In this document: in pieces, positions 11,708-31,966 of the stretch
Layout: each line of letters begins with the position of its first letter
Numbering within the stretch: position 1 is the first letter of the stretch
Source: Spirochaetota bacterium
GTDB taxonomy: Bacteria; Spirochaetota; JAGLSM01; JAKPMW01
DNA: 41,359 bases
Direction: 5' to 3'
NCBI GenBank assembly: GCA_031283155.1
Contig: JAITCI010000064.1
Coordinates: 1 to 41,359, forward strand
The notes under the pieces: generated by a model
Databases searched by the model: none
What the model was told of the DNA's origin: nothing
What the model saw: only the letters and a program-made list of their open reading frames with translations
Made by a program: the position numbers and the translations under genes

Positions 11708-11817
11708 GAAATTTGTGTTACAGGAAAGCGTTCTCTTTTATGAAAGTATGATATATTTATGGAGGTTGTGTTGCGTAGTACGCCGTAAATGAGAATCTGT
11801 GAAACAGGATTTAAATA

Positions 11818-12672
11818 ATGAATAAATCGGCTAAAAAGAAATTTGCAGCACAGCTTTGTGAATTCGCTCAGTCGTTGGGTGCCTTTATTGCACATAATGA
11901 TGAATGGACAATACGAGGTTTTATAGACATTTTCAGGAATATTTATACAATATCCATGGATACAAAAGTCTTATCGAAAATTTTGGAATTGCATTTATTC
12001 CCGCACTTTCTTTCTTTTGCTGAAAAAACAGGATACGGAATTGAGCTTGCCACTCATCAAAACTGGTATCCGGATTTAACATTTGTCCAGAAAAAAGATG
12101 AATCAATAAAATTTGCTGTTGATTTGAAAACGACATATGTTCTTGAGAAATATCCTGGTTTTTGCAACGGCTTCACATTAGGATCGCATGGGGAATATTT
12201 TATAAATCGTAATAGTACAAAAAATATCCAATATCCGTACAACCAATACAGTGGACACTTCTGTTTGGGCATAATTTATTCCAGAGCTCAATTAGGGCCG
12301 GAAATTGAAACCAGAACATATTCCATTGAAGAACTCAAGGATATCCCTTCTGTTATCAATAATTTTACATTCTTTGCTGTTGAAAAATGGAAGATAGCAA
12401 GCGATAAGAGCGGCAGTGGAAATACTGCAAATATTGGAAGCATACAATTTATTGAAGATATTCTTGCCGGCAATGGTGTATTTGCAAAAGCAGGGGAAGC
12501 CATATTCGATGATTATTGGGCAAATTTTGGCAGGATACAAATTGAAACAGAAACAGGGAAACGCAAAGTGCTATCATCATTTGAAGAGTATATTGCTTAT
12601 CGGGGGTTATCGCGAAAAATAATAAACCCCAAGCCCTCAATGAGAAAGGACGCGCCCAATGAGTACGAATAA
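11818..12672 (+). CDS. Type II restriction endonuclease, EcoRV-like
   Basis: Homologue of R.EcoRV, which cuts GATATC bluntly. The match is direct: DTKVLSKILEL, QNWYPDLTF, AVDLKTTY, the Asn/Thr segment NSTKNIQYPYNQY and the DNA-recognition loop GSGNTANIGS all correspond to EcoRV segments. The catalytic triad maps as Asp86, Asp102 and Lys104, the same 16- and 2-residue spacing as EcoRV Asp74/Asp90/Lys92. The conserved recognition loop suggests the same site, though this is inference. It is 284 residues, longer than EcoRV (245), with extra residues at both ends. AGGA lies eight bases before ATG. It overlaps the methylase gene by 14 bases. AT-rich codons unlike its neighbours point to horizontal transfer. 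No controller gene is seen. Confidence 0.95.
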   Translation: MNKSAKKKFAAQLCEFAQSLGAFIAHNDEWTIRGFIDIFRNIYTISMDTKVLSKILELHLFPHFLSFAEKTGYGIELATHQNWYPDLTFVQKKDESIKFAVDLKTTYVLEKYPGFCNGFTLGSHGEYFINRNSTKNIQYPYNQYSGHFCLGIIYSRAQLGPEIETRTYSIEELKDIPSVINNFTFFAVEKWKIASDKSGSGNTANIGSIQFIEDILAGNGVFAKAGEAIFDDYWANFGRIQIETETGKRKVLSSFEEYIAYRGLSRKIINPKPSMRKDAPNEYE

Positions 12673-13531
12673 AATTTATATCCCCCCTTTCAAAACGCAG
12701 GGGATTAAATCCAAACTTGTGCCCTTGATACAGGAAAATGCGCATATAGATGATTCAACCTTATGGATAGAACCTTTTATGGGTTCAGGCGTTGTTGGCC
12801 TGAATATTGCGCCCAAAAGGGCAATTTTCGCCGATATCAATCCGCACATAATCAATTTTTATAACAAGCTCAAAACCCGGGAAATCACTCCGCAGCAGGT
12901 TCTTGAATACCTCCGGGAGCAAGGGGCGCTTCTGGCGCAAAAAGGGGAAGAGCATTATTACTCTGTCCGCGAAAGATTCAACGAGGATCACGATCCGCTG
13001 GATTTCCTTTTTTTGAATCGCTCATGTTTTAATGGCATGATTCGGTTTAATAAATCCAATGGCTATAATGTACCTTATGGGCATAAGCCGCAGCGATTCG
13101 CGCAAGCGTATATAACAAAAATTGTCAATCAGGTTCGGCACTTTGACAGCATGATCCATACACACGAATGGCGCTTTTTGTGTCAGCCATTTGAAGAAAC
13201 CCTTGCCCTGGCCGATAAAGATTCTTTCATATACTGCGATCCCCCCTACATTGGCCGACACGTGGATTACTATGACAGTTGGAATGAAGAGCAGGAAATC
13301 ATGCTGCAAAAAAAATTATCGGATAGCGGAGCGCGATTCATGCTTTCAACATGGGATTGCAGTCAATATCGAAAAAACCAGTATATCGACATTATTTGGA
13401 AAGCATATACAAAAATCACACAGGAACATTTTTACCACATTGGCGCAAAAGAAGACAACAGAAAAACCATCACGGAAGCAATTTTGACAAACTATTCCGC
13501 TCACACGCGCGAAGCGTACAAAGCAACGTGA
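12659..13531 (+). CDS. DNA adenine-N6 methyltransferase, M.EcoRV-like
   Basis: Cognate modification enzyme of the preceding endonuclease; it should methylate adenine in the same site (GATATC if specificity is kept). It is a Dam-type (alpha class) methyltransferase: SAM-binding EPFMGSG at about residues 38-44 and catalytic DPPY at 194-197. Long stretches match M.EcoRV, including PLDFLFLNRSCFNGMIRFN, RFAQAYITKI, CDPPYIGRHVDYY and EHFYHIGA. The gene starts inside the 3' end of the endonuclease frame, with AGGA upstream, so the two are coupled. The C-terminus (SAHTREAYKAT) is shorter than in M.EcoRV, and an unrelated remnant continues in the same frame after the stop. Confidence 0.95.
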   Translation: MSTNKIYIPPFKTQGIKSKLVPLIQENAHIDDSTLWIEPFMGSGVVGLNIAPKRAIFADINPHIINFYNKLKTREITPQQVLEYLREQGALLAQKGEEHYYSVRERFNEDHDPLDFLFLNRSCFNGMIRFNKSNGYNVPYGHKPQRFAQAYITKIVNQVRHFDSMIHTHEWRFLCQPFEETLALADKDSFIYCDPPYIGRHVDYYDSWNEEQEIMLQKKLSDSGARFMLSTWDCSQYRKNQYIDIIWKAYTKITQEHFYHIGAKEDNRKTITEAILTNYSAHTREAYKAT

Positions 13532-13639
13532 GCGTCCCGCATCGTGATGAAGCTCTACGGCTTTCCCAAAGACGCCGCCGAACCCGCTATCGTTGCCGCG
13601 CTGATGGAACGCTACCGGGAGTTGGTACACAAAGTATAA
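13532..13639 (+). pseudogene. Gene remnant after the methylase stop
   Basis: In the same frame as the methylase and directly after its TGA, a 35-codon stretch ends in TAA at 13637-13639; its C-terminal 30 residues read from ATG 13547 as MKLYGFPKDAAEPAIVAALM, then a short charged tail. GC-rich codon use resembles the host more than the methylase. The sequence looks like the C-terminal tail of a larger protein (I am reminded of Eco57I-like restriction-methylation proteins, weakly). I see no start signal, so it is probably a fragment cut off when the island inserted or recombined. Confidence 0.45.
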
Positions 13640-13666
13640 GCCGCGAAAAATACGAAAGAGACACTC

Positions 13667-13812
13667 AGCCACGAATTACACGAATAAAGGCTCGAATAAA
13701 AAATTAAAAAAATTTTTGGGTAAAAGACAAAACCAAAAACCGCGAACCTGTAGTGAAACCCTTCTTGATGTTTTTTGCCTTATTCGATCTTTTATTCGGT
13801 TTTGTTCGTGGC
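13667..13812. repeat. Hairpin element, copy 1 (GCCACGAA...TTCGTGGC)
   Basis: About 146 bp with terminal inverted repeats GCCACGAA (13668-13675) and TTCGTGGC (13805-13812). Subterminal arms also pair: CACGAATAAA..TCGAATAAA on the left and TTATTCGA..TTTATTCGG on the right. The core is A/T-rich. A second copy with conserved ends and a diverged core is at 41096-41242. It has no coding capacity and behaves like a MITE or a related non-autonomous palindromic element. Its right end is fused to the truncated ORF6N gene. Confidence 0.8.
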
Positions 13813-14302
13813 CGAATGTCTTGTAGTTGGCTTTTTTCGCGGCTGGGTTGAAGTCAAGCGTCTGAACGAGAGCGTAAAGCGCAATATTAAAAGGTTTCCG
13901 CATGAATTCATGTTCCGATTAACCAATGCGGAATGGCAAAATCTAAGGTCGCAATTTGCGACCTTTAATAATGATAACCGTAAATATCCTCCTTTTGCTT
14001 TTACGGAGCATGGCATTCTCATGCTTTCCAGCGTTTTGAATTCTGACAGAGCGGTAGACGTTAATATCCAGATAATGAAAATATTCGTGCGTATGCGCCA
14101 TTACGCGCTTTCGCAAAATACAGCAAGTGAACAAATGACCGGGCTTCGCAAATTGTTGATGCTGTACATTGAAAAGAACGATAAGCGCGTGGATGATATT
14201 ATCCTGGTGCTGAACAACCTGCTGGAAAAGCCAAAACAGATCGCAAGGATTGGTTTTAAGGCTGATTCTGTTTCCCAAAAAGACAAAAAAGATCGCGCGT
14301 AA
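13775..14302 (+). pseudogene. ORF6N (KilA-N-like) domain protein, N-terminally truncated
   Basis: From about VEVKRLNESVKRNIKRFP the frame matches the ORF6N domain of phage and mobile-element proteins, with FMFRLTNAEWQNLRSQF and PFAFTEHGILMLSSVLNSDRA, then a helical C-terminus. The usual first 25-35 residues, including the DRDLAELYG motif, are missing. They are replaced by translated right-end sequence of the hairpin element at 13667-13812. The open frame begins with TTG at 13775 inside that element and lacks a ribosome site. So the gene was probably broken by the element. ORF6N proteins are DNA-binding and common in prophages and islands. Confidence 0.7.
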
Positions 14303-14368: not shown

Positions 14369-14919
14369 AGCGCTGGTGCTTTCACTTAGGTTGTGTATTT
14401 ACAGCCGTATGTGCTATCCGCTCCCAAAGAAAAAATCAGCAGCGTTGCAAACCCATGTCGGAACTGGCATAGCCCCCCAAGTTTGCTGTCTTTTTTCCCC
14501 ATCTCCAACTCCGCTGTGCGCGCGCCTGTGCCTTTGCACCCTACGGGCGTAAAGGCATAAATGGGTAGTATTTGAGAGCGCGTATGTACTCTAAGCCAAA
14601 TTCCGAGTCGTTCGCTTAAACTGCTTCCCGTAATTCCCGGATGCGAGTCCCCACCGAAGGTGGTGCGAGCAGACGGGATTGCGGGAAAAAGCGCCGCAAG
14701 TGAGACTCGCGCTACCCTTGTCACTCTACCACCCACAGGGCGTAAAGGGTGCAAAGGCACAGGCGCGCCGCACACCCCCTCGCAAGAGCGTACATCCATG
14801 TACGCGCTCGGGACGCGACCTCCTGTTGCAGGCCCAAAATAAAGAATTTGTCCTTCCCCATATGCGCAGATAGCTTTTCAGGACACAACAGGTATCCATT
14901 CTCGCAGCAGGAGTACGCC
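14369..14919. repeat. Gene-free region with nested inverted repeats
   Basis: I see no gene here. A 27-bp arm at 14516-14542 (GTGCGCGCGCCTGTGCCTTT...) is repeated inverted at 14746-14773. Between them is a long hairpin, TTCCCGTAATTCCCG (14625-14639) with CGGGATTGCGGGAA (14674-14687), around a small CCACC-GAA-GGTGG stem (14651-14663). GGGCGTAAAG occurs near both outer arms, and TACATCC-ATGTACGC lies near 14790. The stretch separates the island from the Na/Pi gene, whose leader begins in its right part. Confidence 0.6.
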
Positions 14920-30208: not shown

Positions 30209-31966
30209 TTATTTTTCGCTCTTTCGCCGCGAGGATGCAAGTTCATGCATATCGCTGTTGATTTTGTCGACGACATTCCTGGTTTCACGGCTCTCACGCA
30301 GGGCGCTTTCCAGATCCTGCTGCAGCCTGGCAAAATCAGCCTGAATTTTTTCAAAGAGCGGACCAAAGAGATCCGCTTCCTGTCTGGAGAGGCTTGCAAG
30401 AACGCGCACCTCCCGCGCCACAATCGCAAATCCTGCGCCCGCCTCGCCCGCGCGCGCGGCCTCAATACCCGCGTTGACAGAGAGCATATTGGTTTTGGAA
30501 GATATATCCTTAATCGAAATTACTGTAGGCGCAAGTTCCTGAATATCGCCGGAGGCGCTTGTGATACAATCCTTCAAATGCGCATACGCCGCATCCTGAT
30601 TCTCGATCTTTGATATCAGGGTGTCCATGCCCCCTTCCAGGCTTTCCACGACGCGCTTTTGCATGGCACCGCTCAGATACGCCTGATAGCAATTTTCCAC
30701 CTTGTTGAGGCCGTTATGGATAGCCATCGCCATACGCTCGCATCTTCCGTATCCGCAGCCATTGCAATTATAAATATCCTTTTCGCTCTCTTTTCCCATG
30801 GCCGCGTAGATAGCTTCCAGTTCCCGCGCGTTGGGAGTTTTCAGGTTGAGGTTCTTTGAGCGATCAATATACGAGCGTTTATACAGACCCGGACGCCAGT
30901 ACCGCTCGATTAGGGCATGGAGCGCCTTCTTGTCTTTCTCATCCGGGAGTTTGCCCTTTTTGCCGTAGTGCCGCTGCATCTCCAGATTTCGCTGATCCAC
31001 CGCCGCTTCCAAGGTATCGGGAGACTTCGCGTGCGCGTCGCCGGTGGCGGTCCCGCCGTTGCATCCCATTTCGCAGTTGAGGCAGTCGATGAGTTTTGGA
31101 ACACAGCCCTGATCAATCGCGTCCTTGAGGCGCTCAAGGTAGGGATAGATATTTTCGGGGCCTTCGATTTTGCGCGTAAAATACTGAATATCATTGTCCC
31201 AGCGTTCGGCCGTGCGCAGAAGTCCGCCGGGAGTTGAAAAAAGCACCGCGCGTTCGGCGGGGGGATTGGCGTATTCAACCTCGGGAAATTTTTGGAGATC
31301 AATATTTTCCTGTTTGAAATATTTTTTCATTGAGAACAGGGTGACATTGAGCGCATCGACTCCGGTAGCGGCAAACTCGCGTTTTTTTGCCCAGCACGGA
31401 GAAACAACAACCATCTGGTCGCCCGAATATTCGGGATAGTATTTCCGTATCATGCGTATGGTGTGGAGCATGGGGCTGTCCGCCGGCGCAAGATAGGGAA
31501 TAAGCTGCGGCTGGTACATCTCTATATAGTTTACAAGCGAAGGACAGGGCTGCGAAATGACGACCGGAGGATTGTATTCCTTCATGTACTCGATATAGCT
31601 TTTGACCGTAAGCTCCGCGCCAAAACTCACGTCGAAAACAGCCTCCGCCCCCATGGACTGCAGCCAGCCGTTAATGCGCAAATACTGATCCGGGAAACTC
31701 GCCACCACCGCCGGCGCCACAATGGCTACCATTCGTTTCCGGGTGCGGCTTGCGATCAGAAAATCCGGAAAATCATCAACGCCGTACCGCGCGCCGTGGG
31801 TACATCTGGCAAGGCAGCGCCCGCAGGCCACGCAGAGTTCAGAATTAAGGGAGATATGATCGCCGCTCCCGTTATTGCAAAAGTGAACGGGACAGACCGC
31901 AATGCAGGCGTTACAATTTATGCAGCGATCCGGATCGACCTTGATGACCTCGGGCAGTTTTTCCAT
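30209..31966 (-). CDS. [FeFe]-hydrogenase-like sensor fused to a chemoreceptor signalling domain
   Basis: A 585-residue soluble fusion. Order: two [4Fe-4S] ferredoxin motifs (Cys15/18/21/25 and Cys45/48/51/55); an H-cluster domain with L1 SQPCPSL (Cys141), L2 [10 protein letters not shown] (Cys191) and L3 [10 protein letters not shown] (Cys298/302); a further 4Fe-4S domain CNGCGYGRC...C (Cys401/404/409/426); then a methyl-accepting chemotaxis signalling hairpin ([20 protein letters not shown], about 489-508). The four H-cluster Cys are kept, but the proton-transfer Cys of TSCCP is Pro140, so turnover should be poor. It probably senses H2 or redox state and signals to CheA/CheW, matching the sensory hydrogenase groups. 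No membrane segment is seen. The start at 31966 has only a weak ribosome site. Confidence 0.9.

Follow-up and report, generated by a model that had tools for sequence, protein, structure and literature searches.

The EcoRV system of the Escherichia coli plasmid pLG13 (NC_005019) is a model of divergent, controller-regulated restriction-modification systems (PMC5333194). The active site of its endonuclease consists of D74, D90 and K92, major-groove contact is made mainly by the R-loops and minor-groove contact by the Q-loop, and K38 intrudes into the minor groove (PMC4081073). The recognition loops are disordered in free EcoRV, and changes to residues that contact bases yield almost inactive enzymes (PMC4081073). 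On pLG13, the methylase gene is divergent from the controller gene and the endonuclease gene. A different arrangement is found on the plasmids pRMAR01 of Rhodothermus marinus and pSMS3-1 of Antarctobacter heliothermus, where the endonuclease gene precedes the methylase gene, the two genes touch or overlap, and no controller gene is adjacent. Our literature search turned up no study of spirochaete EcoRV systems, nor any paper reporting GATATC methylomes for the EcoRV family.

We analyzed a stretch of 41,359 nucleotides from a spirochaete genome (the window), in which an earlier note had described a complete EcoRV-like restriction-modification pair. Sequence homology, the predicted fold and the retention of functional residues back this description well. 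The endonuclease gene (R) and the methylase gene (M) lie in tandem on a chromosomal contig, overlap, and have no controller gene, as on pRMAR01 and pSMS3-1; the R proteins of those plasmid-borne systems are more distant in sequence, with 54–56% identity to the window R. Both enzymes are homologous to those of pLG13 along their length, the two endonucleases sharing catalytic, Q-loop and R-loop residues and the two methylases being orthologous. The window R is longer than EcoRV of pLG13 (284 versus 245 residues), with the extra residues located at both ends. Given that EcoRV is divergent and controller-regulated, regulation differs between it and the window pair. The pair is an intact, ordinary member of a known and widely spread family and is not new in kind. 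As a whole, we read it, with a probability of about 0.88, as a complete chromosomal EcoRV-family Type IIP restriction-modification system that is tandem, controller-free, laterally acquired and, as predicted from its sequence, GATATC-specific (Table 1).

Table 1. Features of the EcoRV-family locus, in window coordinates.
Feature	Position	Strand	Basis
AGGA, probable R ribosome-binding site, 8 bases 5' of ATG	11806..11809	+	inferred from sequence
R, EcoRV-family Type IIP restriction endonuclease gene, 284 aa	11818..12672	+	Pfam, PDB, AlphaFold model
E57 codon (EcoRV E45)	11986..11988	+	invariant 23/23
Q-loop Q81 N82 (EcoRV Q69, N70)	12058..12063	+	Q 23/23, N 22/23
D86 codon (EcoRV D74, catalytic)	12073..12075	+	23/23
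D102-L-K104 codons (EcoRV D90, K92, catalytic)	12121..12129	+	23/23
GATATC inside R	12340..12345	.	sequence
R-loop GSGNTAN, residues 199-205 (EcoRV 182-188)	12412..12432	+	23/23 invariant except A204 column
AGAAAGGA, probable M ribosome-binding site inside R gene, 8 bases 5' of ATG	12643..12650	+	inferred from sequence
14-base overlap between the end of R and the start of M	12659..12672	+	ORF coordinates
M, D12-class N6-adenine DNA methyltransferase gene, M.EcoRV orthologue, 290 aa	12659..13531	+	Pfam, PADLOC, alignment
Motif I FMGSG (SAM binding), M residue 40	12776..12790	+	read from sequence/alignment
GATATC inside M	12833..12838	.	sequence
Motif IV DPPY (catalytic), M residue 194	13238..13249	+	invariant in 23 rows
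Downstream boundary: remnant (C-terminal 33 codons) of a large, unrelated DNA methyltransferase gene, in frame behind the M stop	13538..13639	+	79% DNA identity to contig 47

The assignment of R to the EcoRV family of endonucleases is well supported by its sequence, its predicted fold and the functional residues that it keeps. R matches the Pfam family PF09233 (Endonuc-EcoRV) with 383.6 bits against a cut-off of 25, covering profile positions 3–244 of 244. Using a PDB sequence search, we found that residues 21–263 match solved EcoRV chains (E = 4.6e-43), and direct alignment, the check proposed for both proteins, gives 39% identity to EcoRV of pLG13 over 244 aligned residues. These values place the previously claimed match to R.EcoRV far beyond chance. 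An AlphaFold model of R, built from 15 aligned relatives, has a pLDDT of 81.2, with values below 50 at the tip of the R-loop (residues 202–204). The best PDB match of this model is EcoRV (E = 7.1e-19, TM 0.78 by target length), which also accounts for all 39 significant matching chains.

To score residue conservation, we used an alignment of 23 endonucleases. The EcoRV residues K38, E45, Q69, D74, D90 and K92 correspond to K50, E57, Q81, D86, D102 and K104 in R, and the EcoRV residues G182, S183, G184, N185, T186 and N188 correspond to G199, S200, G201, N202, T203 and N205; every one of these columns is invariant (23/23). N70 of EcoRV is equivalent to N82, with asparagine present in 22 of the 23 enzymes, and R shows zero deviations at the near-invariant positions of the alignment. 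The spacing of the catalytic residues is as the earlier note had it, with D86, D102 and K104 aligning with D74, D90 and K92. The recognition-loop segment GSGNTANIGS reported there is present at residues 199–208, so that the loop, whose loss had been named beforehand as evidence against the pair, is retained by sequence. One R-loop residue differs, T187 of EcoRV being A204 in R, in a column that varies across the EcoRV family (A, K, E or T). Several backbone-contact positions of R also differ from EcoRV.

M matches the D12 methyltransferase family (Pfam PF02086, 153.7 bits) and the PADLOC model MTase_II PDLC03264 (2.8e-116). It is 50% identical to M.EcoRV of pLG13 over 289 residues, in agreement with the match claimed for the methylase. 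Across 23 methylase rows including M.EcoRV, 69 positions are invariant, all of which are kept in M, and M deviates at only two near-invariant positions (N to S at 235 and L to I at 275). The Dam-type GATC methylases, such as E. coli Dam and DpnM, belong to the same D12 class, and M matches solved structures of this type at 2e-23 to 3e-21; its similarity to M.EcoRV is much higher, and M adjoins an EcoRV-type nuclease gene. Further D12-type methylase genes or fragments are present in the host genome on contigs 13, 26, 29, 54, 56 and 63, the copy on contig 56 being Dam-like. Compared with most relatives, M has a short C-terminus, and only 6 bases separate its end from foreign DNA; two relatives have methylase tails that are as short or shorter.

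The 14-base overlap of the two genes matches the one described in the earlier note and probably leads to translational coupling; R and M are probably co-transcribed. Scanning for promoters and terminators, we found nothing above shuffled sequence and no promoter-like site upstream of R. GATATC was correctly said to occur inside both genes and elsewhere: the window contains 27 copies, against 25 expected from its own sub-words, and the host genome contains 1366. The window shows no avoidance of the site, and the genome has many copies of it, as would be expected if it is methylated and equally if R is silent. The conclusion drawn earlier, that these sites make the host need the methylase, stands only on the condition that the nuclease is active with GATATC specificity, and the sites themselves are no evidence of activity. 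We also considered the GATATC copies as conserved regulatory sites and rejected this idea, GATATC being mostly missing from the R and M genes of relatives.

About 27 relatives of the pair were found, drawn from at least six further phyla and from five more genomes of the host phylum, and nearly all of them are arranged in tandem, R then M, and controller-free. In a scan of GTDB species genomes, an M.EcoRV orthologue adjoins R in 17 of the 20 loci recovered; no M match was found next to R in L013, L017 and L019, which for L013 is explained by its contig ending inside R. The distance from the R stop to the M start is −20 to +8 bases in most tandem relatives. Within the host phylum, PF09233 is present in 6 of 393 genomes, including that of the window, and the other five loci are also tandem. 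In contrast, pLG13 and plasmids of Geobacillus, Acinetobacter, Leuconostoc and Latilactobacillus have R immediately preceded by a helix-turn-helix gene, with M on the opposite strand. A profile of these controller proteins gave no match next to R in the tandem loci, nor anywhere in the window. The closest relatives are two Synergistales loci, L001 (BOCB01000059) and L009 (JAISMH010000164), with the same gene order and with identities of 74–76% for R and 70–71% for M. They belong to a different phylum, their M proteins have a longer C-terminal tail, and neither locus has a match to the 35-residue remnant found behind the window M. Compared with the nearest relatives, synonymous differences are saturated and nonsynonymous differences are about 0.15–0.18 per site for R and M, indicating that both genes have been under purifying selection in the EcoRV family. 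No close relative was found in the viral contigs searched. The only relative in a phage record is gene 181 of the haloarchaeal virus HGTV-1 (L049, 2959–3552), which encodes a short EcoRV-like nuclease and has no methylase annotated within the 6.5 kb shown.

In the R tree, the controller-type and tandem-type enzymes are separated with full support. The window R groups with proteins from Synergistales, Synergistaceae and termite-gut Bacillota (100/99), and the window M does likewise, which indicates that both travelled together. The M proteins of the five controller-type systems form no single clade (p-AU 2e-113). The R proteins of EcoRV and Acinetobacter are sisters, but a sister relationship of their M proteins is rejected (p-AU 2e-5); EcoRV M groups with Antarctobacter M, but a sister pairing of the two R proteins is rejected (p-AU 9e-51). 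The R and M trees, with loci L022, L024 and L046, are thus in conflict for classic EcoRV, whose M groups with the tandem-type methylases. A partner exchange in the ancestry of classic EcoRV, in which controller and R genes of one lineage and an M gene of another were once joined, is suggested by the trees, the conflict being read from long branches and a small sample with groups chosen after the trees had been seen. We lean slightly towards two deep endonuclease lineages, one tied to a controller gene and the other, to which the window pair belongs, tandem and controller-free, with classic EcoRV as a mosaic that has its controller–R unit from the first and a methylase that falls among those of the second.

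Lateral acquisition of the pair is supported by two observations: the nearest R and M proteins lie in other phyla (Synergistota and Bacillota), and R is missing from the 59 related genomes searched, one of the same genus included. These are better arguments than base composition, on which the earlier note had relied. The pair is indeed AT-rich, with a GC content of 0.363 for R and 0.427 for M versus 0.49–0.55 for the four neighboring genes measured. However, R and M are AT-richer than their flanks in 10 of the 11 family loci measured, by about 7–30 percentage points (the eleventh differs by 1–3), so AT-richness neither dates nor proves transfer, and we rejected it as non-specific. In the congeneric genome, no empty site was demonstrable, the transporter gene there being followed by a different gene.

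The likeness to contig 47 that defines the remnant behind M extends about 210 bases past the stop of the remnant (window 13538–13850). Contig 47 carries a fuller copy of this large class I DNA methyltransferase gene, which itself looks broken or frameshifted. An ORF6N-domain fragment of the phage regulatory type lies at 13775–14302, and the stretches 13640–13830 and 14775–14835 belong to two families of dispersed repeats, each present in the rest of the genome as dozens of partial copies. With the methyltransferase remnant, the ORF6N fragment and the repeats behind it, the pair thus occupies a region of debris from mobile elements and defence genes, bounded by genes for a transporter and a phosphate cotransporter. 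Further away, at 30209–31966, ferredoxin and iron-hydrogenase large-subunit domains are joined to a methyl-accepting chemotaxis signaling domain. FlaA is a spirochaete periplasmic-flagellum protein. The host genome encodes four above-threshold homologues of it, and FlaA is absent from all control genomes; these homologues support a spirochaete host.

We considered whether the system might be decaying or silent, with M or neither gene expressed and R no longer restricting. The 3' end of M abuts the remnant of another gene, and promoter-like sites are no commoner than in shuffled sequence, with none upstream of R. Furthermore, in two relatives (L016, 6001–6826, and L020, 327–1018) an EcoRV-type R is split between two reading frames next to an intact M, reflecting either R loss or assembly errors. 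In the window pair, however, neither reading frame is interrupted, no functional residue has been lost, and R is without deviation at near-invariant positions, which makes decay or silence unlikely. A slightly less probable alternative is that an intact pair recognizes a related sequence other than GATATC: R has only 39% identity to EcoRV, and the A204 substitution and the differing backbone-contact positions are compatible with such a shift. This is countered by the retention of all EcoRV R-loop and Q-loop base-contact residues, the free variation of column 187, the near inactivity of EcoRV enzymes changed at base contacts (PMC4081073) and the identity of the partner methylase as an M.EcoRV orthologue. 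We give hardly any credence to a third reading, in which the nuclease is a repair or homing enzyme of the same fold. PD-(D/E)xK folds are common to many nucleases, and the model of R has weak matches to I-Ssp6803I, but these lie below the significant ones, all 39 of which are EcoRV, and R adjoins an M.EcoRV orthologue in nearly all relatives.

A working EcoRV-family system is thus the reading we retain, the two enzymes being most likely active and GATATC-specific, and probably co-expressed. M would place m6A into GATATC on host DNA, while R, acting as a dimer with a PD-(D/E)xK active site, would make a blunt mid-site cut (GAT^ATC) at unmethylated GATATC on DNA entering with phages or plasmids. 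The two genes would be co-transcribed and translationally coupled, and the pair would have been acquired laterally from the pool that supplies Synergistota and gut Bacillota.

The locus adds an intact spirochaete example to the well-studied EcoRV family, most of whose genomic relatives found here are without the controller gene that defines classic EcoRV regulation. The R-first tandem order raises the question of how a new host escapes killing; controller-free establishment would need a slow build-up of R, an internal promoter for M, or entry into already protected cells. GATATC methylation could also matter when moving DNA into the host organism.
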